Source: Brevundimonas sp. M20
GTDB lineage: Bacteria; Pseudomonadota; Alphaproteobacteria; Caulobacterales; Caulobacteraceae
Assembly: GCF_006547065.1 (NCBI RefSeq)
Contig: NZ_CP041243.1
Span: forward strand, 1,069,001 to 1,133,000
Reading direction: 5' to 3'
DNA: 64,000 nt
Within the stretch, counting starts at the first letter, position 1; every line of letters begins with the position of its first letter. Under the pieces are notes generated by a model that saw nothing but the letters and a program-made list of their open reading frames with translations, ran no database searches and was not told where the DNA came from. Positions 43,368 to 55,650 of this stretch are shown in pieces. A program made the position numbers and the translations under genes.

Positions 43368-44738
43368 ATGACCTCCCCGTCCTATGTCAGCACCCGTGGC
43401 CGTTCCCAGCTCGTCGATTTCGCCGGGACCGTGATCAACGGCATCGCGCCGGACGGCGGCCTGTTCGCGCCCGCGACCTGGCCGAAGCTGTCGCTGGACG
43501 ATCTGATCGCGGGCGGCGCGGACTATGCGACGCTGGCCGAGCGGCTGCTGACGCCGTTCGTCGGCGAGGGGCTTCCGGCGGGGGCGCTGGCGGCGGCGAC
43601 GCGGCGGGTGCAGGAGCGTTTCCTGCATCCCGACGTGGTCCCGCTGGTCGAGCTGGAGCCCGGCCTGCATGTGCTGGAGCTGTTCCACGGGCCGACGGCG
43701 GCGTTCAAGGACCTGGCCATGCAGCTGGTGGCCGGGATGGCCGAAAGCCTGCTGGCGAACACGGGCGAACGCCTGCTGCTGCTGACGGCCACCAGCGGCG
43801 ACACCGGCGCGGCGGCGGTGAAGGCCTTCGCGGGCGCGGACCGGATTGATCTGGTGGTGCTGCACCCGCTGGGCCGGGTGTCGCCGATGCAGCGGCTGCA
43901 GATGACGACAACCGGTGCGCCGAACGTGCTGAACCTGGCGGTGCGCGGTGACTTTGACGACTGCCAACGGCTGGTGAAAGCCCTGTTGGGCACCCCGGCG
44001 TTGAAGGCGAACCGGCGGGTCAGCTCGGTCAACTCGATCAACTGGGCCCGGCTGTCAGGGCAGGCGCCCTATTACGCGGCGACGGCGGCGAAGCTGGCGG
44101 AGCCCGCGACCTATGTGGTGCCCACCGGAAACTTCGGCGACGCCTTCGCGGGCTGGGTGGCGCGCCAATGCGGCCTGCCGATCGGCGATCTGGTGGCGGC
44201 GACGAACCGGAATGACGCGCTGGTGCGGGCGCTACATACGGGAGTTTATGAGCGGACGCAGGCCGAGCCGACGGCCAGCGTCAGCATGGATGTTCAGGCG
44301 CCCTCGAACTTCGAGCGGCTGGTGTTCGAGGCGACGGGGCGGGATGCGGACCTGACGCGGGGGCTGTTCGAGGACTTCAACAGGGCAGGCCACGTGACCC
44401 TGCCGGGCGACGTGCTGGCGGCCCTGCGGCGCGAGGTGTCGGCGGTCTCGGTCAGCGAGGCGGAGACGGTGGCCGAGATGCAGCGGACCTGGTGCGAGAA
44501 CGGGCGGGTGATCTGTCCGCACACGGCGGTGGCGCTGCATGCGGCGCGGCGGGTCGAACGGACAGGGCCTGTCGTCGCCCTGTCGACCGCGCACCCGGCG
44601 AAATTCCCCGACAGCGTTGAGGCGGCGCTGGGCTTCGCGCCTGAGCGTCCGCCGCAACTGCAAGGGCTGGAGGGTAAGACCGAGCAGTTCGAGACGGTGG
44701 ACGCGACGCTTGAGGCGGTGCTGGCCGCGATCGGTTAA
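43368..44738 (+). CDS. thrC: Threonine synthase
   Basis: A 456-residue PLP enzyme making threonine from O-phosphohomoserine. Start YVSTRGRSQLVDFAGTVING matches the family; Lys114 in HGPTAAFKDLAMQL binds PLP; LTATSGDTGAAAVKAF and VPTGNFGDAFAGW are the phosphate and PLP loops. Its stop codon overlaps that of thrB, which is convergent, so thrC is not in the thr attenuator operon and must have its own promoter. None is clearly visible in the 40 nt before it. Confidence 0.97.
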   Translation: MTSPSYVSTRGRSQLVDFAGTVINGIAPDGGLFAPATWPKLSLDDLIAGGADYATLAERLLTPFVGEGLPAGALAAATRRVQERFLHPDVVPLVELEPGLHVLELFHGPTAAFKDLAMQLVAGMAESLLANTGERLLLLTATSGDTGAAAVKAFAGADRIDLVVLHPLGRVSPMQRLQMTTTGAPNVLNLAVRGDFDDCQRLVKALLGTPALKANRRVSSVNSINWARLSGQAPYYAATAAKLAEPATYVVPTGNFGDAFAGWVARQCGLPIGDLVAATNRNDALVRALHTGVYERTQAEPTASVSMDVQAPSNFERLVFEATGRDADLTRGLFEDFNRAGHVTLPGDVLAALRREVSAVSVSEAETVAEMQRTWCENGRVICPHTAVALHAARRVERTGPVVALSTAHPAKFPDSVEAALGFAPERPPQLQGLEGKTEQFETVDATLEAVLAAIG

Positions 44739-45685
44739 GCCGCCAGCGCGGCCTGTTCGGTCCACCAGTCCAGCCGTCTCAGGAAGGGGGGCGGGTCCTT
44801 GGGCGTCACCAGACGCGTGGGATCATGGAACAGCCGGTCGTGCAGCCGCGTCAGGGTGAAGCGGACTGCGGCGACGGCGCCCAGCGCGGGCAGGGCGGCG
44901 CGTTCGGCCACCGAGAGCGGGCGCACGGACTCATAGCCTGAGCGGAAGGCGGCCAGAGCGGCGGGCAGGGGCAGGCCGTCGGCGTCGAAGCCCCAGGCCG
45001 AAAGGGCGATGGCCAGATCGTAGGCGAGGGCGTCGGTGCAGCCGAAATAGAAGTCGATCAGCCCGCTGGGGGCGTCTTCGTCGAACAGCAGGTTGTCGGG
45101 GAAGTAGTCGGCGTGGATCGGACCACGCGGCAGCCCGGCGGCGGGATCGCCGCTCGCGCCGCTGACCCACGGCGCCATCCGGCCCAGCAGCAGGCGGTCG
45201 TCGGCGTCGGCGCGGGTCAGGCAGCGGTCGAACAGGGCTCGGCGGGCGGCGGGCCCGACCGGGTTGGCGCGCTCCAGCGGGAAGTCGACCGCCGCGAGGT
45301 GCAGGCGCGCCAGCAGGGCGCCGGCCGCGTGCTGATGCTCCAGCGAGGGCTCACGCTTCCAGGCCCCCGGCAGCCATTCGAGGATTGCGGCGGGGCGACC
45401 GTTGAGTTCGCCGACGGCCTGCCCCTGATCATCGAGCACGGCGCGGGCGCAGGGCAGGCCCTTGTCGGCGGCGTGGGCGGTCAGGCCGAGACAGAAGGGC
45501 AGGGAGGCGGCGTCCGTGCGACCCTCGAACAGGGTCAGGACATACCGACCCCGGTCGGTGTCGATGCGGTAGTTGGTGTTCTCCACCCCTTCGGCGATGG
45601 GCGTGAGCGACCGCAGGGCGCCCAGCCCATAGCGGCTAATGAAGGGCTCGGCGTCGGCCTCCTCGACGGGGGTGAAGACGGCCAT
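44735..45685 (-). CDS. thrB: Homoserine kinase (APH-fold type)
   Basis: A 316-residue kinase of the aminoglycoside-phosphotransferase fold used by alphaproteobacteria for homoserine phosphorylation. EGVENTNYRIDTDRGRYVLTLFE is the nucleotide-binding start, PIHADYFPDNLLFDE the catalytic loop, and LIDFYFGCTDALAYDLA the metal-binding motif. It begins 2 nt after the stop of the fused aspartokinase-homoserine dehydrogenase gene and should be cotranscribed with it under the thr attenuator. Confidence 0.95.
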   Translation of the reverse strand: MAVFTPVEEADAEPFISRYGLGALRSLTPIAEGVENTNYRIDTDRGRYVLTLFEGRTDAASLPFCLGLTAHAADKGLPCARAVLDDQGQAVGELNGRPAAILEWLPGAWKREPSLEHQHAAGALLARLHLAAVDFPLERANPVGPAARRALFDRCLTRADADDRLLLGRMAPWVSGASGDPAAGLPRGPIHADYFPDNLLFDEDAPSGLIDFYFGCTDALAYDLAIALSAWGFDADGLPLPAALAAFRSGYESVRPLSVAERAALPALGAVAAVRFTLTRLHDRLFHDPTRLVTPKDPPPFLRRLDWWTEQAALAA

Positions 45686-45687
45686 GG

Positions 45688-47427
45688 TCAGACGGCCTTC
45701 GACAGGCGGGCGGCGGCGAGGTCGGACAGGTCGGCCAGCAGGCTTTCCGCCGTGGCCCAGCGACCGGCGCCGCGGCCGCGACGGCGCACGACCGATCCGT
45801 CCTGCGAGATGACCTTCAAGGCGTTGCCCTCTCCCTTCAGCTCCGCGAACAGCGGGTCCAGCGCGCCCGAGACCAGACGGACGGCGGCGACCAGCTTGCC
45901 GTCTTTCAGCTCGCAGCGACAGAGCTGACGCGAACCGGCGGGCGGCAGGGCGGCGGGGTCCAGAACATCGCGATGAATGGCGACGTCGTCCGGCATCACG
46001 CCGAAGGCTTCGAACGAGAGCAGGCGGACCTTGGCGAGGGCGTCGAGGCCTTGCAGATCGGAGGACGGGTCTTCCTCGGCGAAACCGGCGGCGCGGGCTT
46101 CGGACAGGGCCTGATCGAAGGCGGCGCCTTCGCCGAGACGGGCGAGCATGAAGTTGACGGTGCCGTTCAGCACGGCCTCGAAGGCGACGACCGGAGCCTC
46201 GTCCCGGGCAGCGCGCACGGCCTCGACCATGGGCACGCCGCCACCGACCGAGGCGGACCAGAGCAGTTTCGCGTCGTTGCGAGCCGCCAGTTCGAGCAGG
46301 CCGTCCGGATCGACGCTGACCGCCTGTTTGTTGGCCGTGGCGACATAGACACCGCGCGACAGGGCAGCGGCGATGACGTCGTAGCCGGCTTTCGCCTCCG
46401 AAAGGGCCTCGAGCACAAGATCGGGGTCCCGCTCCAGCAAGGCGACGGGGTTGGACACGAGCAGCGGGGCGAGCTGGGCATCAGATGCGCCGGGGACATC
46501 GCGGGGTTTGGACGGATCGCGGACGAGGACGCCGACGACCTCGACGCGGGGATCGACCAGCAGGCGGGCCAGTGCGCCGCCGCCGACCACGCCGCAGCCG
46601 GCGACGGCCACACGAAGACGACGGTGGGCGGGCGCGGGCTTCGGCGGGGCGCCGACCGGGCCGACGACCGTGCGGTGGCCGTCGAGGTAGTTGCGGACCT
46701 CGACCTTCAGCTTGCGGGCCTCGGCGAGATCGAGCGCGTCCGGCTGGACGAGGCCGCCGCCCAGCGCCTTGGCCTCGGCCCAGCTGGCCTGATCATAGCG
46801 GCGGGCGTCGGGATGGACGTTGGGGTCGCGGTCGTAGAGGCCGTCGACGTCCTTCACCAGCTGGACGCTGTCGAGCTCAAGTTCGGCGGCGAGGAAGAGG
46901 GCCGTCAGGTCCGATCCGCCACGGCCCAGCAGGACGACCTGCCCTTCGGGCGAGACAGCGCCGAAGCCGGGGACGACCACCACTTCATGCTTCAGCAGGG
47001 CGCGGTCGAGGGCGGCGCGGTCCAGCGACAGCGGGCGGGCGTGCTCGCAGGGGCCATCGGCGACGAGGCCCAGCTCCCGGACCGTCAGGGTCGCGGCGCT
47101 GAGACCGACGCGATCGCAGGCCAGGGCGACCAGGGCGGCGGAGCGTTCCTCACCCTGAACCACGTAGGCAGGCAGCAGGCTGTTGTCGTGGGCGAGGCCG
47201 AGGGCGCGGGCCTCGGCGAGCAGGCGGTCCGTTTCACCGGCGAGCGCCGAGACGACGGCGACCACGCGTCGGCCCCGTCGGACTTCGGCGTAGATGTCGG
47301 AGGCGACCTTGGGCGCGTCGGCGGGATCGACCAGCACGGAGCTGCCGAACTTCATCACGACCACCTCGGGCGAGGCGGCGGGGAGGGCGGGTACGGGGCG
47401 TTCGAGGACGGCGAGTTGGGCGTTCAT
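45688..47427 (-). CDS. thrA: Fused aspartokinase-homoserine dehydrogenase, without ACT domain
   Basis: A 579-residue bifunctional enzyme. Residues about 20-265 are an aspartokinase catalytic domain: VVVMKFGSSVLV (KFGG(T/S)S in most), VVPGFGAVSPEGQVVLLGRGGSDLTA and DVDGLYDRDPNVHPDARR. Residues about 270-579 are homoserine dehydrogenase: VAVAGCGVVGGGALARLL, VATANKQAVS, and NGTVNFMLARLGEG with the FAEEDPSSDLQGLDALAKV signature. Usual ThrA/MetL proteins are about 810 residues with two ACT domains between these parts; none is visible here. So feedback by threonine is unlikely at the protein level. ATG at 47427 follows the attenuator. thrB follows 2 nt downstream. Confidence 0.88.
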   Translation of the reverse strand: MNAQLAVLERPVPALPAASPEVVVMKFGSSVLVDPADAPKVASDIYAEVRRGRRVVAVVSALAGETDRLLAEARALGLAHDNSLLPAYVVQGEERSAALVALACDRVGLSAATLTVRELGLVADGPCEHARPLSLDRAALDRALLKHEVVVVPGFGAVSPEGQVVLLGRGGSDLTALFLAAELELDSVQLVKDVDGLYDRDPNVHPDARRYDQASWAEAKALGGGLVQPDALDLAEARKLKVEVRNYLDGHRTVVGPVGAPPKPAPAHRRLRVAVAGCGVVGGGALARLLVDPRVEVVGVLVRDPSKPRDVPGASDAQLAPLLVSNPVALLERDPDLVLEALSEAKAGYDVIAAALSRGVYVATANKQAVSVDPDGLLELAARNDAKLLWSASVGGGVPMVEAVRAARDEAPVVAFEAVLNGTVNFMLARLGEGAAFDQALSEARAAGFAEEDPSSDLQGLDALAKVRLLSFEAFGVMPDDVAIHRDVLDPAALPPAGSRQLCRCELKDGKLVAAVRLVSGALDPLFAELKGEGNALKVISQDGSVVRRRGRGAGRWATAESLLADLSDLAAARLSKAV

Positions 47428-47454
47428 CGGAGGGGCTTTCGAGGAGAGGGGAGG

Positions 47455-47490
47455 AAAAGAAAAACCCCGCCCGGAGCGATCCGGGCGGGG
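47455..47490 (-). terminator. Attenuator terminator of the thr operon
   Basis: Read on the minus strand: an 11-bp stem, CCCCGCCCGGA and TCCGGGCGGGG, with a 4-nt loop, followed by a TTTTTCTTTT tract, about 30 nt before thrA. It follows the leader ORF. The first arm is nearly complementary to bases within the leader ORF (plus-strand 47533-47541), which gives an antiterminator alternative. Confidence 0.85.
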
Positions 47491-47523
47491 TTGGGTTTTT
47501 GCGTTCCTGAGCTTTGGTGCGCG

Positions 47524-47643
47524 CTAACCGTTCCCCGCCGGAGCGGTGATGGTGGTGGTGCCGGTCATACCAATGACGCGCGCGGTCGCGCCGCCGCACG
47601 AGGCGGTCGAGGCGATGGCGATGCGGGCGTCGAGGCGGTTCAC
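47524..47643 (-). CDS. thrL: Threonine operon leader peptide (ThrL-like)
   Basis: A 39-codon ORF with a GTG start (47641-47643) and TAG stop, 34 nt before the terminator hairpin. Its C-terminal 14 residues are MTGTTTITAPAGNG: five threonines and an isoleucine in seven codons, all ACC but for one ATC. The E. coli ThrL peptide has a similar TTTIT...GNG ending. Ribosome stalling at these codons when charged tRNA-Thr or tRNA-Ile is short would free CCGGCGGGG (plus-strand 47533-47541) to pair with the first terminator arm and let transcription reach thrA. The GTG start is inferred; an ATG at 47568 would give only the final 14 residues. Confidence 0.75.
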   Translation of the reverse strand: MNRLDARIAIASTASCGGATARVIGMTGTTTITAPAGNG

Positions 47644-47801
47644 GGCGGACCTGCTCAGTTCAAGTTCAGAACGGAGGCTGACGGACAATCCCCCTCGCCG
47701 TCAACCCGAAAGGTGAAAAATTGCGCGTGACCTGCACCGGTGCGGCCCGGTGAGCACGGCGCGACCCTGTGGCCCGACTGTGAGAAGCAGTGAGACTGAA
47801 T

Positions 47802-47828
47802 TTGACACAGAGAACTTTAGAATACAAA
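47802..47828 (+). promoter_or_regulatory. Possible promoter of the DUF2141 gene
   Basis: TTGACA at 47802-47807 is followed 15-17 nt later by AT-rich TACAAA/CAAAGT, 45 nt before the start codon. Spacing is on the short side. Confidence 0.3.
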
Positions 47829-47872
47829 GTACTCTTCATGAGGCGGGGCTGGCCCGCTTTTGGAGACCTGTC

Positions 47873-48301
47873 ATGAATAAGATCATCCTTGCGGCCTTGG
47901 CCGCCGCATCCTGCCTCGCCGCCGCCCCCGCGCTTGCAGGAGACGTCACCGTGACCCTGACCGGCGTGCAGGCGCGCGGCGGCCAACTGCTGGCCGCCCT
48001 GCAAACGCGGGATCAGTTCCTGCAACCCGCCGGGACCTACGGCGATGTCGTGCGCAATCCGGAGGCCGGGACGGTCACCGTGACTTTCCGCGACGTGGCG
48101 CCCGGCGACTATTCGCTGTCGGTCCTGCACGACGTCGACAGCAACGGGCAAATGAAGATTGAGGGCGGCATGCCGGCGGAGGGCTGGGCCATGGTCAACG
48201 GCGCGGCCCTCCGCGCGGCGCCGACATGGGACCAGGTGAAGTTCACGGTCCCGGCCAGCGGCGACAGCCGCCTGACCGTGCCGATGCAATATCCTCGCTG
48301 A
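47873..48301 (+). CDS. DUF2141-family exported protein
   Basis: A 142-residue protein with a signal peptide (ILAALAAASCLAAAPALAG) followed by a beta-sandwich of DUF2141 type: DVTVTLTGVQARGGQLLAAL, VTFRDVAPGDYSLSVLHDVDSNGQ with the Asp-rich calcium-like turn, and GWAMVNGA. The function of this family is unknown; members are periplasmic or secreted. GGAGA lies 8 nt before the ATG. It is divergent from the thr operon and ends at a bidirectional terminator shared with leuB. Confidence 0.85.
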   Translation: MNKIILAALAAASCLAAAPALAGDVTVTLTGVQARGGQLLAALQTRDQFLQPAGTYGDVVRNPEAGTVTVTFRDVAPGDYSLSVLHDVDSNGQMKIEGGMPAEGWAMVNGAALRAAPTWDQVKFTVPASGDSRLTVPMQYPR

Positions 48302-48371: not shown

Positions 48372-49472
48372 TCAGGCCCAGTGCATCTGGACGCGATGAG
48401 CGGCGGCCCAGTGGATGGCGCGCAGCCCGTCGATCACGGCGTTGGCGGCGGCGCGGGTGCCCAGCTCCCCGCCCAGATCGGCGGTGACGGCTCCGGCTGA
48501 CAGGACGGCGGCGCAGGCGGCTTCGATGGAGCCGGCTTCGTCCTCCAGTCCCAGGCTGTGACGCAACAGCAGGGCGGCGGACAGGATGGTGCCGACCGGG
48601 TTGGCCTTGTCCTGACCGGCGATGTCCGGCGCCGAGCCGTGGATCGGTTCGAACAGGCCCGGACCGCTGGAGCCCAGCGAGGCCGAGGGCAGCAGGCCGA
48701 TGGAGCCGCCCAGCACCGAAATCTCGTCCGACAGGATGTCGCCGAACATGTTTTCGGTCAGGATGACGTCGTACTCGCGCGGCTTGCGGATCAGGTGCAT
48801 GGCCATGGAGTCGACCAAGGCGTGCTCCAGTTCGATACGCGGGAACTCCTCGGCATGGACGCGGCTGACGACCTCGCGCCAGAGGCGGCTGGTTTCCATG
48901 ACGTTGGCCTTGTCGACCGAAGTGACCTTGCCGCGACGCTGCTGGGCGGTCTGGAAGGCGGCGCGGGCGACGCGTTCGATCTCCGGCACGGTGTATTCGC
49001 AAAGGTCGGTGGCGCGGTCGGCGGTGCGGGTCTTTTCCCCGAAATAGATGCCGCCGGTCAGCTCGCGGAAGACGATCAGATCGACGCCCTCGACGATCTC
49101 CTTCTTCAGCGGCGAACGGTGGGCCAGCACCGGCGAGACCTGCAGGGGACGCAGGTTGGCGTACAGGCCCATGGCCTTGCGCAGGCCCAGCAGGCCTTCT
49201 TCCGGACGGCGTTTGCCGCCATCCCACTTCGGTCCGCCCACGGCGCCCAGCAGCACTGCGTCGGCGGCCAGACAGGCGGCGGCGGTTTCCGGCGGCAGGG
49301 GATCGCCCGTGGCGTCGATGGCCGCGCCGCCGATCAGGTGTTCGCTGAAGTTGAAGGTGTGACCGAAGAAGTCGCCGACGACCGTCAGCACGGCCTTGGC
49401 CGCGTGGGTTACTTCGGGGCCGACGCCGTCACCGGGCAGGACGACGATGTCATAGGTCTTGGAGGCGGGCAT
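48372..49472 (-). CDS. leuB: 3-isopropylmalate dehydrogenase
   Basis: A 366-residue beta-decarboxylating dehydrogenase, third step of leucine synthesis. [21 protein letters not shown] starts the family; [11 protein letters not shown], the VDSMAMHLI region with [25 protein letters not shown] (NAD contacts) and the [21 protein letters not shown] motif (metal and NAD binding) follow. It is the last gene of the ilv-leu operon. The ATG overlaps the leuD stop by one base. Confidence 0.97.
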
Positions 49473-50056
49473 CAGACGGTCTCTTTCCGGCGTTCAAAGG
49501 CTTCGATGTCAGGCAGGCGGGCTTGCAGCCAACCGAGGGTGTCGACCCCGTCCAGCAGGCACTGGCGGGCGAAACTCTCCACCGTGAATGCGACAGGCGG
49601 TGCATTGCCGCGCTGGATGGTGGAGGTTTCCAGATCAACCGTGATCGGCTGGTCGGCGTGGGCGGCCAGATCGTCCCAGGTCGCCTGATCGACGACGATG
49701 GGCAGGAAGCCGTTCTTCAGGGCGTTGGAGGTGAAGATGTCGGCGATCTCGGTCGAGACGACGGCGCGGAAGCCGTAGTCCATCAGCGCCCAGGGAGCGT
49801 GTTCGCGCGAGGAACCGCAGGCGAAATTTCTGCCTGCCAGCAGGATGCGGCGCTCGGTCGGGTCGATCCGGTTGAGGATGGCTTCCGGCTTGTGGGAGCC
49901 GTCAGCCTCATAGCGCCAGTCGTAGAAAGCCCATGCGCCCAGACCCTCGCGGCTGGTCGTGCTCAGGAAGCGGCCGGGGATGATCTGGTCGGTGTCGATG
50001 TTCGACTGTGACAGGACCACGGCTTTTGAGGTCAGGGATTTGAAGGGCTCAGGCAT
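49472..50056 (-). CDS. leuD: 3-isopropylmalate dehydratase small subunit
   Basis: A 194-residue subunit that pairs with Leu[15 protein letters not shown] and [27 protein letters not shown] are the conserved substrate-loop motifs of the aconitase swivel domain. It isomerises 2-isopropylmalate to 3-isopropylmalate in the cytoplasm. Its start overlaps leuC by 8 nt, and its stop shares a base with the leuB start. Confidence 0.97.
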
Positions 50057-51506
50057 TTTGGGCTCCTACCGCCTCGCGCGCGGCGCTCGGCTGCTTGAGG
50101 AGGGCGGCCTCCTGCAGAAACACGCGCGGGTCGGTCAGGACACCGGTGATGGCGGTCGCCGCCGCCGTGGCGGGGCTGGCCAGAATGGTGCGCGAACCGG
50201 GGCCCTGGCGGCCTTCGAAATTGCGGTTGGAGGTGGAGACCGCCAACTGGCCCGGAGCCACCATGTCGCCGTTCATGGCCAGACACATGGAGCAGCCCGG
50301 GATGCGCCACTCGGCCCCCGCGTCGGTGAAGACCGTGTGCAGCCCTTCGGCTTCGGCGTCGCGACGGACGGCCTCCGAGCCGGGAACGACCAGCATGCGC
50401 AGGCCCGGCTTCACCTTGCGGCCGCGCAAGACTTCCGCGGCGGCGCGCAGGTCGGGCAGGCGGCCGTTGGTGCAACTGCCGATGAAAACGACATCGACCG
50501 CATGGCCGGTGGTCGCCTCGCCGGGGGTGAAGCCCATATAGGCCAGCGCCTTTTCGCCGGAGGCGTCGTACGGAGCCGGGACGGGCTCGCCGATGGCCGA
50601 GCCCGCGTCCGGGGTGGTGCCCCAGGTCGCCATGGGGCGGATGGCGCCGCCGTCGATGTGGACTTCGGCATCGTAGATCGCGCCGGGGTCGGAGGCCAGC
50701 GACAGCCAGTCGGCGACGGTCTGGTCCCAGACGGCGGTGTCGGGCGCGTGCTTGCGGCCCTTCAGCCAGTTCACGGTGGTCTGATCCGGAGCGATCATGC
50801 CCGCGCGGGCGCCCGCCTCGATCGACATGTTGCAGACGGTCATCCGCCCTTCCATGTCCAGCGACCGGATGGCCTCGCCGGCGTATTCGACCACGAAGCC
50901 GGTGCCGCCGCCGAAGCCCAGACGGGCGATGATGGCCAGCGCCACGTCCTTGCCCGAGACGCCGGGCTGCAGTTGTCCGTCGACGGTGACGCGCATGGTC
51001 TTCGCCTTGCGCTGCAGCAGGCATTGGGTGGCCAGTACGTGGCCGACCTCGGAGGTGCCGATGCCGAAGGCCAGGGCTCCGAACGCGCCGTGGGTGGCGG
51101 TATGGCTGTCGCCGCAGACGACGGTCATGCCGGGCTGGGTCAGGCCCAGTTCCGGTCCCATGACGTGCACCACGCCGCGATCCGCCGAGTCCCAGCCCGC
51201 CAGCGAGACGCCGTGCCGGGCGCAGTTGGCTTCCAGCGTCTCGACCTGCGCCCTGGAGGCCGGCGTGTAGTAGGGGCGCTCGCCGCTCGCGTCCGCGGGC
51301 AGGGTGGGGGTGGAGTGATCCAGGGTGGCGAAGGTGCGGTCGGGACGACGCACCTTCAGGCCCCGGCTCTCGATCTCGGAGAAGGCCTGCGGACTGGTGA
51401 CCTCGTGGACCAGATGCAGGTCGATGTAGAGCACCGCCGGGGCGTCAGGCGTTTCCGCCTGCACCACGTGCCGGTTCCACACCTTCTCGAACAGGGTCTC
51501 AGGCAT
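50049..51506 (-). CDS. leuC: 3-isopropylmalate dehydratase large subunit
   Basis: The iron-sulfur subunit, about 485 residues. [25 protein letters not shown] and [22 protein letters not shown] are classic aconitase motifs; cysteines in SCTN and GCSMC hold the [4Fe-4S] cluster. ATG at 51506 is favoured because GAGG lies 6 nt before it and it just overlaps ilvE; ATG at 51518 would add four residues. It lies between ilvE and leuD in the operon. Confidence 0.97.
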
Positions 51507-52464
51507 ATTCGGCCTCACGCTGCGGAGCCGGGGCGGGGGCGTTGATCGGCTCCAGCCAGTTGTGGCGATCCGGCGTGGCGCCGGTGAACAGGCCGCGGAA
51601 GGCGGCGTTGACCGCCTTGGTCACCGGCCCCGGCCCCGCGGCGCGGGTGGCGATGCCGTCCACGGAGCGGACCGGGGTGATCTCGGCGGCCGTGCCGGTC
51701 ATGAAGATCTCGTCGGCGACATAAAGGGCCTCGCGCGGCAGGATCTGTTCGCGGGTCTCGTAACCCAGACCGCGCGCCAGCTTCAGCACGCTGTCGCGGG
51801 TGATGCCCATCAGGATGGAGGCGGCGGCGGGCGGGGTGATGATCTCGCCGTCCTTGACGATGAACAGGTTCTCGCCGGCCCCTTCCGACAGGCGGCCGTC
51901 GGTGCCCAGGGCGATGCCTTCACCGAAGCCGCCGACCCGGGCTTCGCGCCCGATCAGATAGGACGACAGATAGTTGCCGCCCGCCTTGGCGCCCGAGGGC
52001 ACGGTGTTGGGGGCGATTCGCGACCAGCTGGCCACGCAGGCGTCGACGCCCTTTTCCAGCGCCTCCTCGCCCAGATAGGCGCCCCACGGGAAGGCGGCGA
52101 TGGCGACATCGACGTTCATATTCTGGGGAGAGGGCGTCACCCCCATGCCGCAGGCGCCGAGGAAGGCGATGGGGCGGATGTAGGCGGACTTCAGCCCGGT
52201 TGATCGCACGGTGGCGCGGCAGGCCTCGACCAGCTCGTCGACTGTGTACGGCAGTTCGAAGTGATACATGCGGGCGCTGTCGAACAGTCGGCGCACATGG
52301 TCTGTCAGGCGGAAACCGCAGGGACCGTCCGGGGTGTCATAGACGCGAATGCCCTCGAACACCGAGGTGCCATAGTGCAGGGCGTGGCTCATCACGTGAA
52401 CCTTGGCGTCGGCCCAGGGCGTCAGCTCGCCGTTGACCCAGATATGTTCAGCCAGCGGCTGCAT
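51499..52464 (-). CDS. ilvE: Branched-chain amino-acid aminotransferase
   Basis: A 321-residue fold-type IV PLP enzyme, catalysing the last step of Leu, Ile and Val synthesis. [22 protein letters not shown] opens the family, with [20 protein letters not shown] containing the PLP lysine, [15 protein letters not shown], and [16 protein letters not shown]. The protein is notably close in pattern to the enterobacterial IlvE, as is IlvM of this operon. ATG 52464 is chosen because the fold begins there; its first 17 nt overlap the end of leuA. Confidence 0.96.
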
Positions 52465-53677
52465 ACGCGTACTCCTGTCGGGGGGCGGCGTCCGGGCGCG
52501 AGGCCTCGATGATCGCCAGCAATTCGTGGTCGTTGATCTCGCCGATCTCGTCGGCGCGGCGTTTGAAGCCCGCGAAGGCGGCGGCCAGATGGGCGCCGGA
52601 TACGGGTTGGCCCAGCGCCTCGGCGCGCTTGGCGACCGCATGGCGGCCCGAGTGCTTGCCCAGTACGAACCAGGTGCCTTCGAAGCCGACATCCTGAGGG
52701 CGCATGATTTCGTAGGTCGACGGGTCGGCCATCATGCCGTGCTGGTGGATGCCCGCCTCGTGGGCGAAGGCGTTCAAACCGACGATGGCCTTGTTGCGCA
52801 CGACCGGGGTGTGGGTGATCTCGCTCAGCAGGCGGCTGGCGCGAACCAGATGGGTGGCGTCCACGCCGGTGTGCAGGCCGTAGCGGTCCGACCGGGTGCG
52901 GATGGCCATGACCATCTCCTCGATCGAGGCGTTACCTGCCCGTTCGCCGATGCCGTTGATGGCGCCCTCGACCTGACGCGCCCCGGCTTCGACCGCTGAG
53001 AGGGAGTTGGCGACGGCCATGCCCAGATCGTCATGACAGTGGGCCGAGAAGACCACGTGTGGATGACGCACGCGGACCGCGGCCATCAGGTTGCGGTAAA
53101 TCTCGGCGATCTCGCCCGGCGTGGAGTAACCGACGGTGTCGGGAATGTTCAGGGTGGTGGCGCCCGCGGCGGCGGCGACTTCGCACACCTCGGCCAGGAA
53201 TTCCGGCTCGGTGCGGATGGCGTCCTCGGGGCTGAACTCCACGTCCTCGAAGCGGGTGCGGGCATAGGCGACCGAACGCTCGGCGGCTGCCAGCACCTCG
53301 GCCTTCGACATCTTCAGCTTGGCCGACCTATGGATCGGGCTGGTGCCCAGGAATACGTGGATGCGGCGCTCCTGAGTGCCGCTCAGGGCGCGGTACGCAG
53401 CATCGATGTCGGACTCGTTGGAGCGGGCCAGCGAGCAGAAGACGGGGCCCTCCACCTCGCCGGCCACACGGCGCACGCATTCTTCGTCTCCGGGTGAGGC
53501 GGCGGCGAAACCGGCCTCGACCACATCGACCTTCAGGTCCGCCAGCACGCGGGCCATGCGGACCTTGTCCTCCGGCCCCATGGAGAAGCCGGGCGCCTGT
53601 TCGCCGTCGCGCAAGGTGGTGTCGAAGACGATGACCCGGTTCGGATCGGCGGCGACGGCCTTTTGAACCTTGGTCAT
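52448..53677 (-). CDS. leuA: 2-isopropylmalate synthase, short form lacking the regulatory domain
   Basis: A 409-residue enzyme condensing 2-oxoisovalerate and acetyl-CoA, the committed step to leucine. The TIM-barrel is complete: FDTTLRDGEQAPGFSM (metal Asp), FSAHCHDDLGMAVANSL (metal His pair), NGIGERAGNASIEEMVMAI, and AFAHEAGIHQHGMM. E. coli LeuA is about 523 residues with a C-terminal leucine-binding dimer domain; this protein ends at about the point where that domain would begin (NDHELLAIIEAS, then a short tail). Leucine feedback at protein level is therefore unlikely. The start overlaps ilvM by 4 nt. Confidence 0.9.
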   Translation of the reverse strand: MTKVQKAVAADPNRVIVFDTTLRDGEQAPGFSMGPEDKVRMARVLADLKVDVVEAGFAAASPGDEECVRRVAGEVEGPVFCSLARSNESDIDAAYRALSGTQERRIHVFLGTSPIHRSAKLKMSKAEVLAAAERSVAYARTRFEDVEFSPEDAIRTEPEFLAEVCEVAAAAGATTLNIPDTVGYSTPGEIAEIYRNLMAAVRVRHPHVVFSAHCHDDLGMAVANSLSAVEAGARQVEGAINGIGERAGNASIEEMVMAIRTRSDRYGLHTGVDATHLVRASRLLSEITHTPVVRNKAIVGLNAFAHEAGIHQHGMMADPSTYEIMRPQDVGFEGTWFVLGKHSGRHAVAKRAEALGQPVSGAHLAAAFAGFKRRADEIGEINDHELLAIIEASRPDAAPRQEYAYAAAG

Positions 53678-53937
53678 GCCGCTACCTCAGGATGGAAGGA
53701 CGAGGCGGAAGCGCTGACGCGGGTGACGCCGAACAGCTTGTCGATCTGTCGGCCCAGGGTCCGGGTGCAACGGGCGGCGTCGCGGCCGCGCACGGCCATT
53801 TCGATTCGGCGTGCCGGGCCCTCATCGCGCATGGTGATGCCATCGATGTGGAAGCCGCGACGCTCAACCAGACCGATCAGGCGCTGAAGCGAGCCGTCGG
53901 CGCGATCAATGTTCAGGTGCAGGGTTTCGGTGCTCAT
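53674..53937 (-). CDS. ilvM: Acetolactate synthase small subunit, IlvM type
   Basis: An 87-residue single ACT-like domain: LQRLIGLVERRGFHIDGITM, then RQIDKLFGVTRV. Length and pattern match the IlvM subunit of E. coli acetolactate synthase II, not the larger two-domain IlvN/IlvH subunits that most alphaproteobacteria use. It stabilises and activates the large subunit. It sits 3 nt after ilvG, and its stop overlaps leuA. The missing second domain suggests less valine feedback, as for E. coli isozyme II; this is inference. Confidence 0.85.
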   Translation of the reverse strand: MSTETLHLNIDRADGSLQRLIGLVERRGFHIDGITMRDEGPARRIEMAVRGRDAARCTRTLGRQIDKLFGVTRVSASASSFHPEVAA

Positions 53938-53940
53938 GGC

Positions 53941-55647
53941 TCAGGCGCCTTCCATCATTTCAGCGTTGCTCTTTCCGGGCGGGACCAGCGGCCACACGTT
54001 TTCCCGGGGGTCGATAATCACGTGCGCGAGGCAGGGGCCGTCGGCGGCCAGCAGGCGGGCGATCCCGGCCTGGACCTCCTCGCGTCGGCTAATTCGGAAG
54101 GCTTCGATCCCGAAGGCCTCGGCGACCTTCACGAAGTCCGGATTGTCGGACAGGTCGATCTCCGAGTAGTTGCCGTCGAAGAACAGCTCCTGCCACTGGC
54201 GGACCAGACCCAGGGAGCTGTTGTCCAGCAGCAGAACCTTCACCGGGATGCCGTAGCGGCGCAGGGTGGCCAGCTCCTGCACGTTCATCATGAAGCCGCC
54301 GTCGCCGGCGATGACGACGACCGTGGCGTCCGGATCGGACAGCTTGGCGCCTATACCGGCGGGCAGGCCGAAGCCCATGGCGCCCAGGCCGCCGGAGGTG
54401 ATGTGGGCTTCCGGCTTTGCGAACCGACAGTGCTGGGCGGCCCACATCTGGTGCTGGCCGACGTCGCAGGCGGCGACGAAGTCATCACCGGCGGCTTCCG
54501 AGATCGCCTTCAGCAGGGCCGGGGCGTAGACGCCTTCGCCAGGTGCATCGGCATAGCGGAAGGCGGTGCGCTGAACCCGGCTGGCGCAGTGGATCATCCA
54601 CGGATCAATGGCCGGACCCTTGCCCGCCAGATGGGCGGTCAGGGCCTCGACGCCCGGCGCCAGCTCACCCGCGACCGGAATCCAGGTCTCGCGCAGCTTG
54701 CCGATCTCGGACGCGTCGATGTCGAAATGGATGACGCGGGCGTGGGGGGCGAACTCAGCCAGCTTGCCGGTGGCGCGGTCGTCGAAGCGGGCGCCGAAGA
54801 CGATCAGCAGATCGGCTTCCTGCACGGCCTCGTTGGCCGCGCGCGTGCCGTGCATGCCCAGCATGCCCTGGAAGCCGGGAGCGTCGGTCGGGATCGTGCC
54901 CAGCGCGTTCAGGGTCGCGACCGACGGGATGCCGGTGGCCTCCGCGAAGGCGCGGACCTGCTCTGTCGCGCCGCCGATCTTCACGCCGCCGCCGACATAG
55001 ATCAGTGGCCGTTGCGCGGCGCGGATGGCGTCCGCGGCCGCGGCGATGGCGTCGTGGTCCACCGGAACGACGGTGTTCGGATAGCTGAAGCCGAAGTCCT
55101 CGGTGGTCTGACCGACCTGAACGTCCTTGGGCAGGTCGACCAGAACCGGACCGGGGCGGCCCGAGGCGGCGATATGGAAGGCTTCCTCGATGGCGGCCGG
55201 AACATCGGCCGGATCGCGGACCAGGATGGAGTGCTTCACGATCGGCAGGGTGACGCCCAGGATATCGATTTCCTGGAAGGCGTCGGTGCCCATGACGCCT
55301 TGCGCGACGTTACCGGTGATGCAGACGACCGGGATGGAATCCATCATCGCATTGGCGATGCCGGTGATCAGGTTGGTGGCGCCGGGGCCGGACGTGGCCA
55401 TGCAGACCCCGACCTTGCCGCTGCGACGGGCCCAGGCGTCGGCGGCGAAGGCGGCGGCCTGTTCATGACGGACCAGGATGTGGCGCAGGTTCGATCCGGC
55501 CAGGGCGTCATAGACGGGCATGATCGCGCCGCCCGGATAGCCGAACACGACCTCAACCCCCAGCCGCTCCAGGGTGGAGACGAGCAGGCGGGCGCCGCTT
55601 TTCGGGGCGGCGGCGGGTTCAGACATACGGGCGGCGGAGGCGGTCAT
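53941..55647 (-). CDS. ilvG: Acetolactate synthase large subunit
   Basis: A 568-residue ThDP enzyme that makes acetolactate or acetohydroxybutyrate. VVFGYPGGAIMPVYDAL and HEQAAAFAADAWARRSGKVGV near the start, the FAD-region GMHGTRAANEAVQEADLLIVFGARFDDRATG, and the ThDP motif GDGGFMMNVQELATLRRYGIPVKVLLLDN-type segment (GDGG followed by LLLDN) are all visible. Paired with an IlvM-type subunit, so named ilvG; ilvB is the other possible label. It starts 3 nt past ilvC. Confidence 0.95.
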   Translation of the reverse strand: MTASAARMSEPAAAPKSGARLLVSTLERLGVEVVFGYPGGAIMPVYDALAGSNLRHILVRHEQAAAFAADAWARRSGKVGVCMATSGPGATNLITGIANAMMDSIPVVCITGNVAQGVMGTDAFQEIDILGVTLPIVKHSILVRDPADVPAAIEEAFHIAASGRPGPVLVDLPKDVQVGQTTEDFGFSYPNTVVPVDHDAIAAAADAIRAAQRPLIYVGGGVKIGGATEQVRAFAEATGIPSVATLNALGTIPTDAPGFQGMLGMHGTRAANEAVQEADLLIVFGARFDDRATGKLAEFAPHARVIHFDIDASEIGKLRETWIPVAGELAPGVEALTAHLAGKGPAIDPWMIHCASRVQRTAFRYADAPGEGVYAPALLKAISEAAGDDFVAACDVGQHQMWAAQHCRFAKPEAHITSGGLGAMGFGLPAGIGAKLSDPDATVVVIAGDGGFMMNVQELATLRRYGIPVKVLLLDNSSLGLVRQWQELFFDGNYSEIDLSDNPDFVKVAEAFGIEAFRISRREEVQAGIARLLAADGPCLAHVIIDPRENVWPLVPPGKSNAEMMEGA

Positions 55648-55650
55648 GGT

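Follow-up and report, generated by a model that had tools for sequence, protein, structure and literature searches.

A threonine-codon leader and probable transcription attenuator before an ACT-less aspartokinase-homoserine dehydrogenase gene in Brevundimonas

The fused aspartokinase-homoserine dehydrogenase (AK-HSD) gene of Brevundimonas sp. M20 is preceded by a short threonine-rich leader ORF, an intrinsic terminator and a helix alternative to it, and the same arrangement stands before nearly every fusion of this kind examined in the genus. Sequence comparison makes it very likely that this leader is a ribosome-mediated transcription attenuator, which would turn the thr operon on when threonine is short. 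Attenuation of thr operons has long been known and is classical in Gammaproteobacteria. The present leader is a new example of this kind of switch, in a host group and on an enzyme, an AK-HSD without ACT domains, for which Rfam misses it. The window, meaning the whole stretch of 64,000 nucleotides that was analysed, comes from a genome of 3.3 Mb, and Brevundimonas belongs to the Caulobacterales. The features of the locus are collected in Table 1.

The leader ORF runs for 39 codons from a putative GTG start at 47643 to TAG at 47524 on the minus strand and would encode the peptide MNRLDARIAIASTASCGGATARVIGMTGTTTITAPAGNG. Its threonine block, ACCGGCACCACCACCATCACC (47565-47545), holds five ACC codons, and six further codons follow before the ORF ends. 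The earlier note, which had the ORF end in a run of Thr and Ile codons, was therefore right about the ORF and the block but not strictly about the ending. Downstream of the putative -35 box TTGAC there is a -10-like stretch (~47680-47669), and a sigma-70 consensus scan of the leader locus returned zero sites. The terminator stem (47492-47463) has 13 bp, 10 of them GC, and is followed by TTTCTTTTCC. A strong terminator before the thr gene had been claimed and is present, although its distance from the leader stop is 31 nt (33 nt when counted to CCCC) and not 34 nt. A terminator scan of 47300-48000 gave 5 terminator-like sites against 0.5 expected from shuffles, all 5 being overlapping readings of one hairpin on both strands. 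In the ORF tail, GGCGGGG (47539-47533) can pair with CCCCGCC (47490-47484) through 7 contiguous GC pairs plus a bulge; this complementarity to the first arm of the terminator had been described as complete save one base, which was the less apt wording. The predicted antiterminator rod continues through the window spacer with GGUU:AACC, GCG:CGC and a small inner hairpin, and GGUU consists of the last Gly codon and the first base of the stop codon. The parts that define an attenuator are found at this locus: a leader ORF rich in codons for the product, an intrinsic terminator ahead of the structural gene and, going by geometry and predicted folds, a mutually exclusive antiterminator that stalling would free and a ribosome at the stop would mask.

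Table 1. Features of the leader, its RNA elements and the neighbouring thr genes in the window
Feature	Position	Strand	Basis or remark
Leader ORF	47524..47643	-	Putative GTG start, TAG stop, 39 codons
Control codons ACC GGC ACC ACC ACC ATC ACC	47545..47565	-	Thr counts and composition in relatives
TTGAC, putative -35 box	47700..47704	-	Promoter role putative; TTGAC present in relatives' leaders
Antiterminator 5' arm GGCGGGG, within ORF tail	47533..47539	-	Column conservation and recoding test
Terminator 5' arm / antiterminator 3' arm CCCCGCC	47484..47490	-	Fold and conservation
Middle helix of predicted antiterminator rod, GGUU	47526..47529	-	Pairs with 47497-47494
Partner AACC of middle helix	47494..47497	-	Predicted rod fold
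Possible protective hairpin (1:2), CCGC-TCCG-GCGG	47535..47546	-	Overlies antiterminator arm; predicted in full-length fold
Intrinsic terminator, 13-bp stem, T-rich tail	47463..47492	-	Stem scan and fold
AK-HSD fusion (controlled gene), 579 aa	45688..47427	-	Pfam; no ACT domain found
thrB, homoserine kinase, directly downstream	44735..45685	-	NF003558, 307.2 bits, cut-off 271
thrC, threonine synthase, convergent	43368..44738	+	TIGR00260, 229.8 bits, cut-off 167.1

The strongest argument for a functional leader comes from the relatives. I searched 131 genomes of the genus, of which 87 gave a near-full-length match to the fusion (at least 57% identity) and three a partial or split one, and the 5' region was read for 87 of these 90 fusion loci (L008-L049, L052-L096). 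In 86 of the 87 the elements stand in the same order, first an ORF rich in Thr, then the tail arm and last a terminator hairpin; the sole fusion without a leader is L094 (G065). To compare leaders and controls by a fixed rule, I counted Thr in the last 18 codons before the stop that precedes the G-rich arm and T run. The count is 3-9 for the 86 leaders, with 85 at 4 or above, and 0-3 for 36 control upstream regions, with 35 at 2 or below. As controls I used L094, fusions from other genera (L097-L111) and, from the same genus, 20 HSD genes that stand alone (L112-L131). If any 10-codon window is allowed, one control (L099) reaches 5 Thr. This retention of the Thr codons, the alternative stem and the terminator hairpin, the first two of which the earlier note had made a condition of its reading, backs its view that the logic of thr attenuation, here ribosome-mediated, probably applies in an alphaproteobacterium. 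Furthermore, TTGAC lies 60-280 nt upstream of the leader stop in all 86 leaders, and GTG is the first in-frame start past that box in 69. Measured from that start, the leader ORF has a median length of 43 codons (four of the 86 have fewer than 30), with TAG as the stop codon in 69 and TGA in 17. Coding constraint is little evident in the N-terminal half, a clear third-position excess being confined to clade GP.

An RNA model built from the 86 leaders (R1) outlines the distribution of the element. Among 299 genomes of the family it scored 77.5-105.2 bits in 52, all of this genus, with weaker matches in 25 others. The window's own genome has one strong match and no other at E<0.08, and 337 genomes of the class gave two matches besides the window. 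Eighteen weak matches were fetched, L169, L172, L175, L177, L179, L180 and L186 among them. By eye, L174, L178, L181, L182 and L184 looked like chance matches or plain terminators, and the match in G514 (L197) looked like chance. Two other kinds of candidate leader were noticed along the way: L173 (G294, genus g6) has a His-rich leader, HHHGCHHH, and a terminator-like hairpin before a hisS-type gene, and L176 and L185 (genus g14) each have, ahead of a terminator-like hairpin, a short ORF in which four Ile codons stand in a row. Six other genera were inspected by eye at one HSD locus each, one of these loci being a truncated 345-base piece; here the HSD gene closely trails another gene, and no thr leader was seen between the two.

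Across the 86 leaders there is hardly any variation in GGCGGG, the arm of the ORF tail, or in CCCGCC, the arm of the terminator: every column of the GGCGGG core is kept in at least 84, and four of its six columns in all 86. The tail pairs with the terminator arm more strongly than synonymous recodings do, at p ≤ 0.05 in 69 leaders and at p ≤ 0.2 in all 86 (window, p 0.02), with a mean energy of -20.0 kcal/mol against -12.8 for random synonymous recodings. Thus the antiterminator arm is conserved past the needs of the peptide. The fold of the antiterminator spacer is likewise better than that of dinucleotide shuffles (p ≤ 0.05 in 71 of the 86, mean z -2.8; window, p 0.03). Since RNAalifold across all 86 leaders together gave only a weak 6-bp consensus, the clades were folded separately. 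With transcripts cut before the 3' arm, the consensus fold is the antiterminator in all six clades (76 of the 86 leaders). At full length it is the terminator with the protective hairpin in four of the six, while in clades GP and TGA2 it is the antiterminator, which counts against the model. The putative protective hairpin is stronger than in synonymous recodings (p ≤ 0.05) for 57 of the 86 leaders; the window's own p is 0.38.

Pair counts are less telling. The outer antiterminator helix has 0 pairs with two-sided change in the 86 leaders, and covariation is uninformative there because the core is nearly invariant. For the protective hairpin, 8 cells show two-sided change at one pair, but in sequences where another hairpin register is likelier, and a slid control gives 13, so this count lends no support. 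In the terminator, one pair shows two-sided change in two cells, barely above controls. Terminator hairpins are imperfect, such that 26 of the 86 leaders fail a strict mismatch-free scan; terminator cells are paired in 91.2% overall, and one pair is mismatched in 44 of 77 distinct rows. As a separate observation, the GCG/GCGC right after the leader stop (window 47523-47519; alignment A1 columns 41-43) is nearly invariant (80, 86 and 81 of the 86 leaders). Some of these bases are paired in the predicted antiterminator rod, which accounts only partly for this degree of conservation.

How such a leader might work can be laid out as follows. As RNA polymerase transcribes the leader, a ribosome would translate its 39 codons. 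With ample charged threonyl-tRNA, the ribosome would reach the TAG and mask GGCGGGG; CCCCGCC would then pair with its 3' partner, the terminator would form, and AK-HSD-thrB would go untranscribed. When threonyl-tRNA is scarce (and perhaps isoleucyl- or methionyl-tRNA too), the ribosome would stall on the ACC run and leave GGCGGGG open to pair with CCCCGCC, closing the longer antiterminator rod (GGUU:AACC, GCG:CGC and the inner hairpin) and allowing read-through. The small hairpin after the Thr codons may close the antiterminator arm if a ribosome is absent. In an equilibrium model of the RNA before the 3' arm exists, the mean antiterminator probability varies with the position of the ribosome: it is 0.87 for the first Thr codon, 0.90 for a middle one, 0.61 for the last and 0.00 for the stop, the final value being true by construction because the tail is masked. 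For the window leader, the value for the last Thr codon is 0.00 in the same model. Without a ribosome the mean is 0.91, which argues against a simple default-off reading without kinetics; default termination would thus need kinetic folding. The predicted energies of the window leader, -46.0 kcal/mol for the terminator state and -40.5 for the antiterminator state, also mean that the choice would have to be kinetic. Known attenuators do choose their fold kinetically.

The gene under this putative control starts at 47427, 35 nt past the terminator and 96 nt past the leader stop. Its product has the Pfam domains AA_kinase, NAD_binding_3 and Homoserine_dh, and Pfam found no ACT domain in either half. 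Because thrC is convergent, it lies outside the attenuated operon. Elsewhere in this genome, a separate aspartokinase does carry ACT domains (L051), and a second HSD carries none (L050). The latter (G000:C1, ~649.9-653.6 kb) comes after metB and a metX-like gene (named by eye), and the met operon that holds it is headed by a SAM-I riboswitch (L198:1290-1414, minus strand). The N-terminal stretch of the L050 HSD looks by eye like an aspartokinase remnant, and no kinase domain was found in it by Pfam. A second HSD was found in nine fusion genomes, eight of which belong to the ten-genome window clade; two of the matches in this clade hold an in-frame stop, and its other two genomes, for which no second HSD is listed, have a completeness of 87 and 95%. 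On the opposite strand, upstream of the thr leader, a SAM-I riboswitch occurs in 31 of the 32 long loci outside the window clade (L018-L049, the exception being L043) and in none of the ten loci of the window clade. Among five short loci scanned (~600 bases), it is present in L054, L056, L059 and L065 and not in L092. In the one locus checked, the divergent riboswitch (L024:950-1066, minus strand) precedes metX. Just upstream in the window, 48372-55650 on the minus strand holds an amino-acid synthesis cluster, named by eye as leuB, leuD, leuC, ilvE-like, leuA and ilvH/ilvB-like.

A sceptic might see here no more than an ordinary terminator that ends an upstream transcript, next to an ORF that is Thr-rich by chance. 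Strong terminators near gene starts are common, and the window's Thr block taken alone is not extreme: in its 11-codon block, 4 Thr correspond to a binomial P of only 0.0017, uncorrected for the choice of place, and on that density a chance origin is modestly unlikely. It is the conservation in relatives, not the density in the window alone, that excludes a chance origin of the block, since 86 of 87 relatives combine the block with the arm and the terminator hairpin, a combination that the fixed rule finds in none of the 36 controls. The nearest upstream minus-strand gene, leuB, moreover ends at 48372, ~880 bp away, with a plus-strand ORF between. Given the conservation, an ordinary terminator beside a chance ORF is very unlikely. 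Somewhat less remote, though still improbable, is a leader that acts mainly on translation, through coupling to AK-HSD, or in trans, through the terminated RNA or the peptide, as rnTrpL and peTrpL do in Sinorhizobium. Roles in trans for attenuator RNA and peptide are indeed reported in an alphaproteobacterium in the available parts of PMC7298713 and PMC10117765. However, the N-terminal half of the peptide is highly variable here whereas the Thr block and the RNA arms are kept, and between the leader stop and the AK-HSD start, 96 nt apart, stands the terminator. Transcription attenuation by a translating ribosome is therefore the reading I retain.

Which amino acids this attenuator would read is a question of codon composition. 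I took 32 representatives that share less than 70% identity and counted their codons -18 to -9 (320 codons); the counts are corrected for descent solely through that choice of representatives. Thr makes up 52.8% of this control block, Gly 15.6%, Ile 11.6% and Met 10.9%, together 91%, compared with 5.1, 8.7, 3.05 and 1.7% in seven window genes (2816 codons). The 86 leaders spell Thr as ACC 439 times out of 469, the window genes 100 times out of 144. One reading of these figures is that the leader senses Thr, Ile, Met and perhaps Gly tRNAs jointly, that is, the products of homoserine and threonine; this would be compatible with a Thr attenuator and broaden its signal, and I consider it possible but doubtful. 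Ala is rare in the control block (1.6%) although it is as near to ACC by mutation as Ile, and a second HSD was not found in most fusion genomes, so that methionine would depend on AK-HSD too. On the other hand, the protective hairpin may be what keeps some of the Met codons constant (alignment A1 columns 13-15). Furthermore, the drop in Met codons expected in the window clade, given the second HSD in eight of its ten genomes, was contradicted (13% there against 7.2%). Glycine is made mainly from serine in most bacteria. The threonine attenuator remains the preferred reading, with or without these additional amino acids.

In the literature searched I found no paper on a thr attenuator of Brevundimonas or the Caulobacterales, though the main comparative study (Vitreschak 2004) lies outside that scope and may list one; none appears in the available parts of PMC2965389 or PMC1273637. 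The available text of a survey of Rfam elements suggests that four amino-acid leaders may be gammaproteobacterial in origin, with few transfers (PMC3766115). A thr attenuator that Rfam misses, before 86 of 87 fusions examined in an alphaproteobacterial genus, instead suggests independent invention, and surveys based on Rfam-type models would undercount such attenuators. A wider proposal, which I offer tentatively and think rather unlikely, is that a lineage-specific thr attenuator replaced the lost allostery of an ACT-less AK-HSD, reads Thr, Ile and Met jointly and, in most relatives, faces a SAM riboswitch (before metX where checked). If this were true, control of the homoserine branch point would, in most of the relatives seen, rest with two RNA sensors placed back to back. 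The leader also offers a case in which a replacement of allosteric by transcriptional control could be tested.

Among known systems the closest in logic is the thr leader of Gammaproteobacteria, and the comparison draws on the sequence of ThrL and the layout of the thr operon in that group. Both would combine a Thr/Ile-rich leader ORF with a mutually exclusive antiterminator and terminator before an AK-HSD gene and thrB. The window leader would act like the gammaproteobacterial one, yet it is outside the Rfam Thr_leader family. The Rfam covariance model that the earlier note had suggested as a check (RF00506) gives the window leader 19.3 bits (E 1.4), short of the gathering cut-off of 55; at gathering thresholds Rfam finds one tRNA only in the whole window, and Thr_leader has zero matches at E ≤ 1 in 14 further loci. 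The ThrL-like peptide end seen in the earlier note is not supported: the GNG ending is absent from most relatives in the genus, AGNG occurring in 2 of the 86 leaders against AGTG in 50, AGRV in 27 and others in 7, and the likeness thus looks coincidental. The AK-HSD of the Brevundimonas-type leader, in addition, differs in having no ACT domains.

Also close are the Thr/Lys leaders before asd in Alphaproteobacteria (g14, G495 and Sinorhizobium SEP5), which likewise have a Thr-rich leader and a terminator-like hairpin before an aspartate-family gene; those of g14 and G495 were found with R1 itself. In four loci (L170, L171 and L183 in three g14 genomes, L196 in G495), Thr-rich, Lys-bearing leader ORFs and terminator-like hairpins stand directly before asd, identified by NCBIfam in two cases and by eye in two. 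They are likely Thr/Lys attenuators, and differ from the window leader in the gene, in their additional Lys codons and in their R1 scores (31.6-52.9 bits against 77.5-105.2 in the window genus). In the window's own genome, the 685 bases read ahead of asd showed no leader. For S. meliloti SEP5, the available text of PMC10117765 gives six Thr and three Lys codons, proposes a Thr/Lys leader and names the gene aspartate dehydrogenase; my guess is that this gene is asd. Finally, the ilv leader of Caulobacter crescentus, a member of the same family as Brevundimonas, is described in the available parts of PMC4117421, where the word threonine occurs 0 times in the main text. It resembles the present leader in relying on ribosome-mediated attenuation through a leader CDS, and differs in its Ile/Val codons and in the operon that it serves, ilv.
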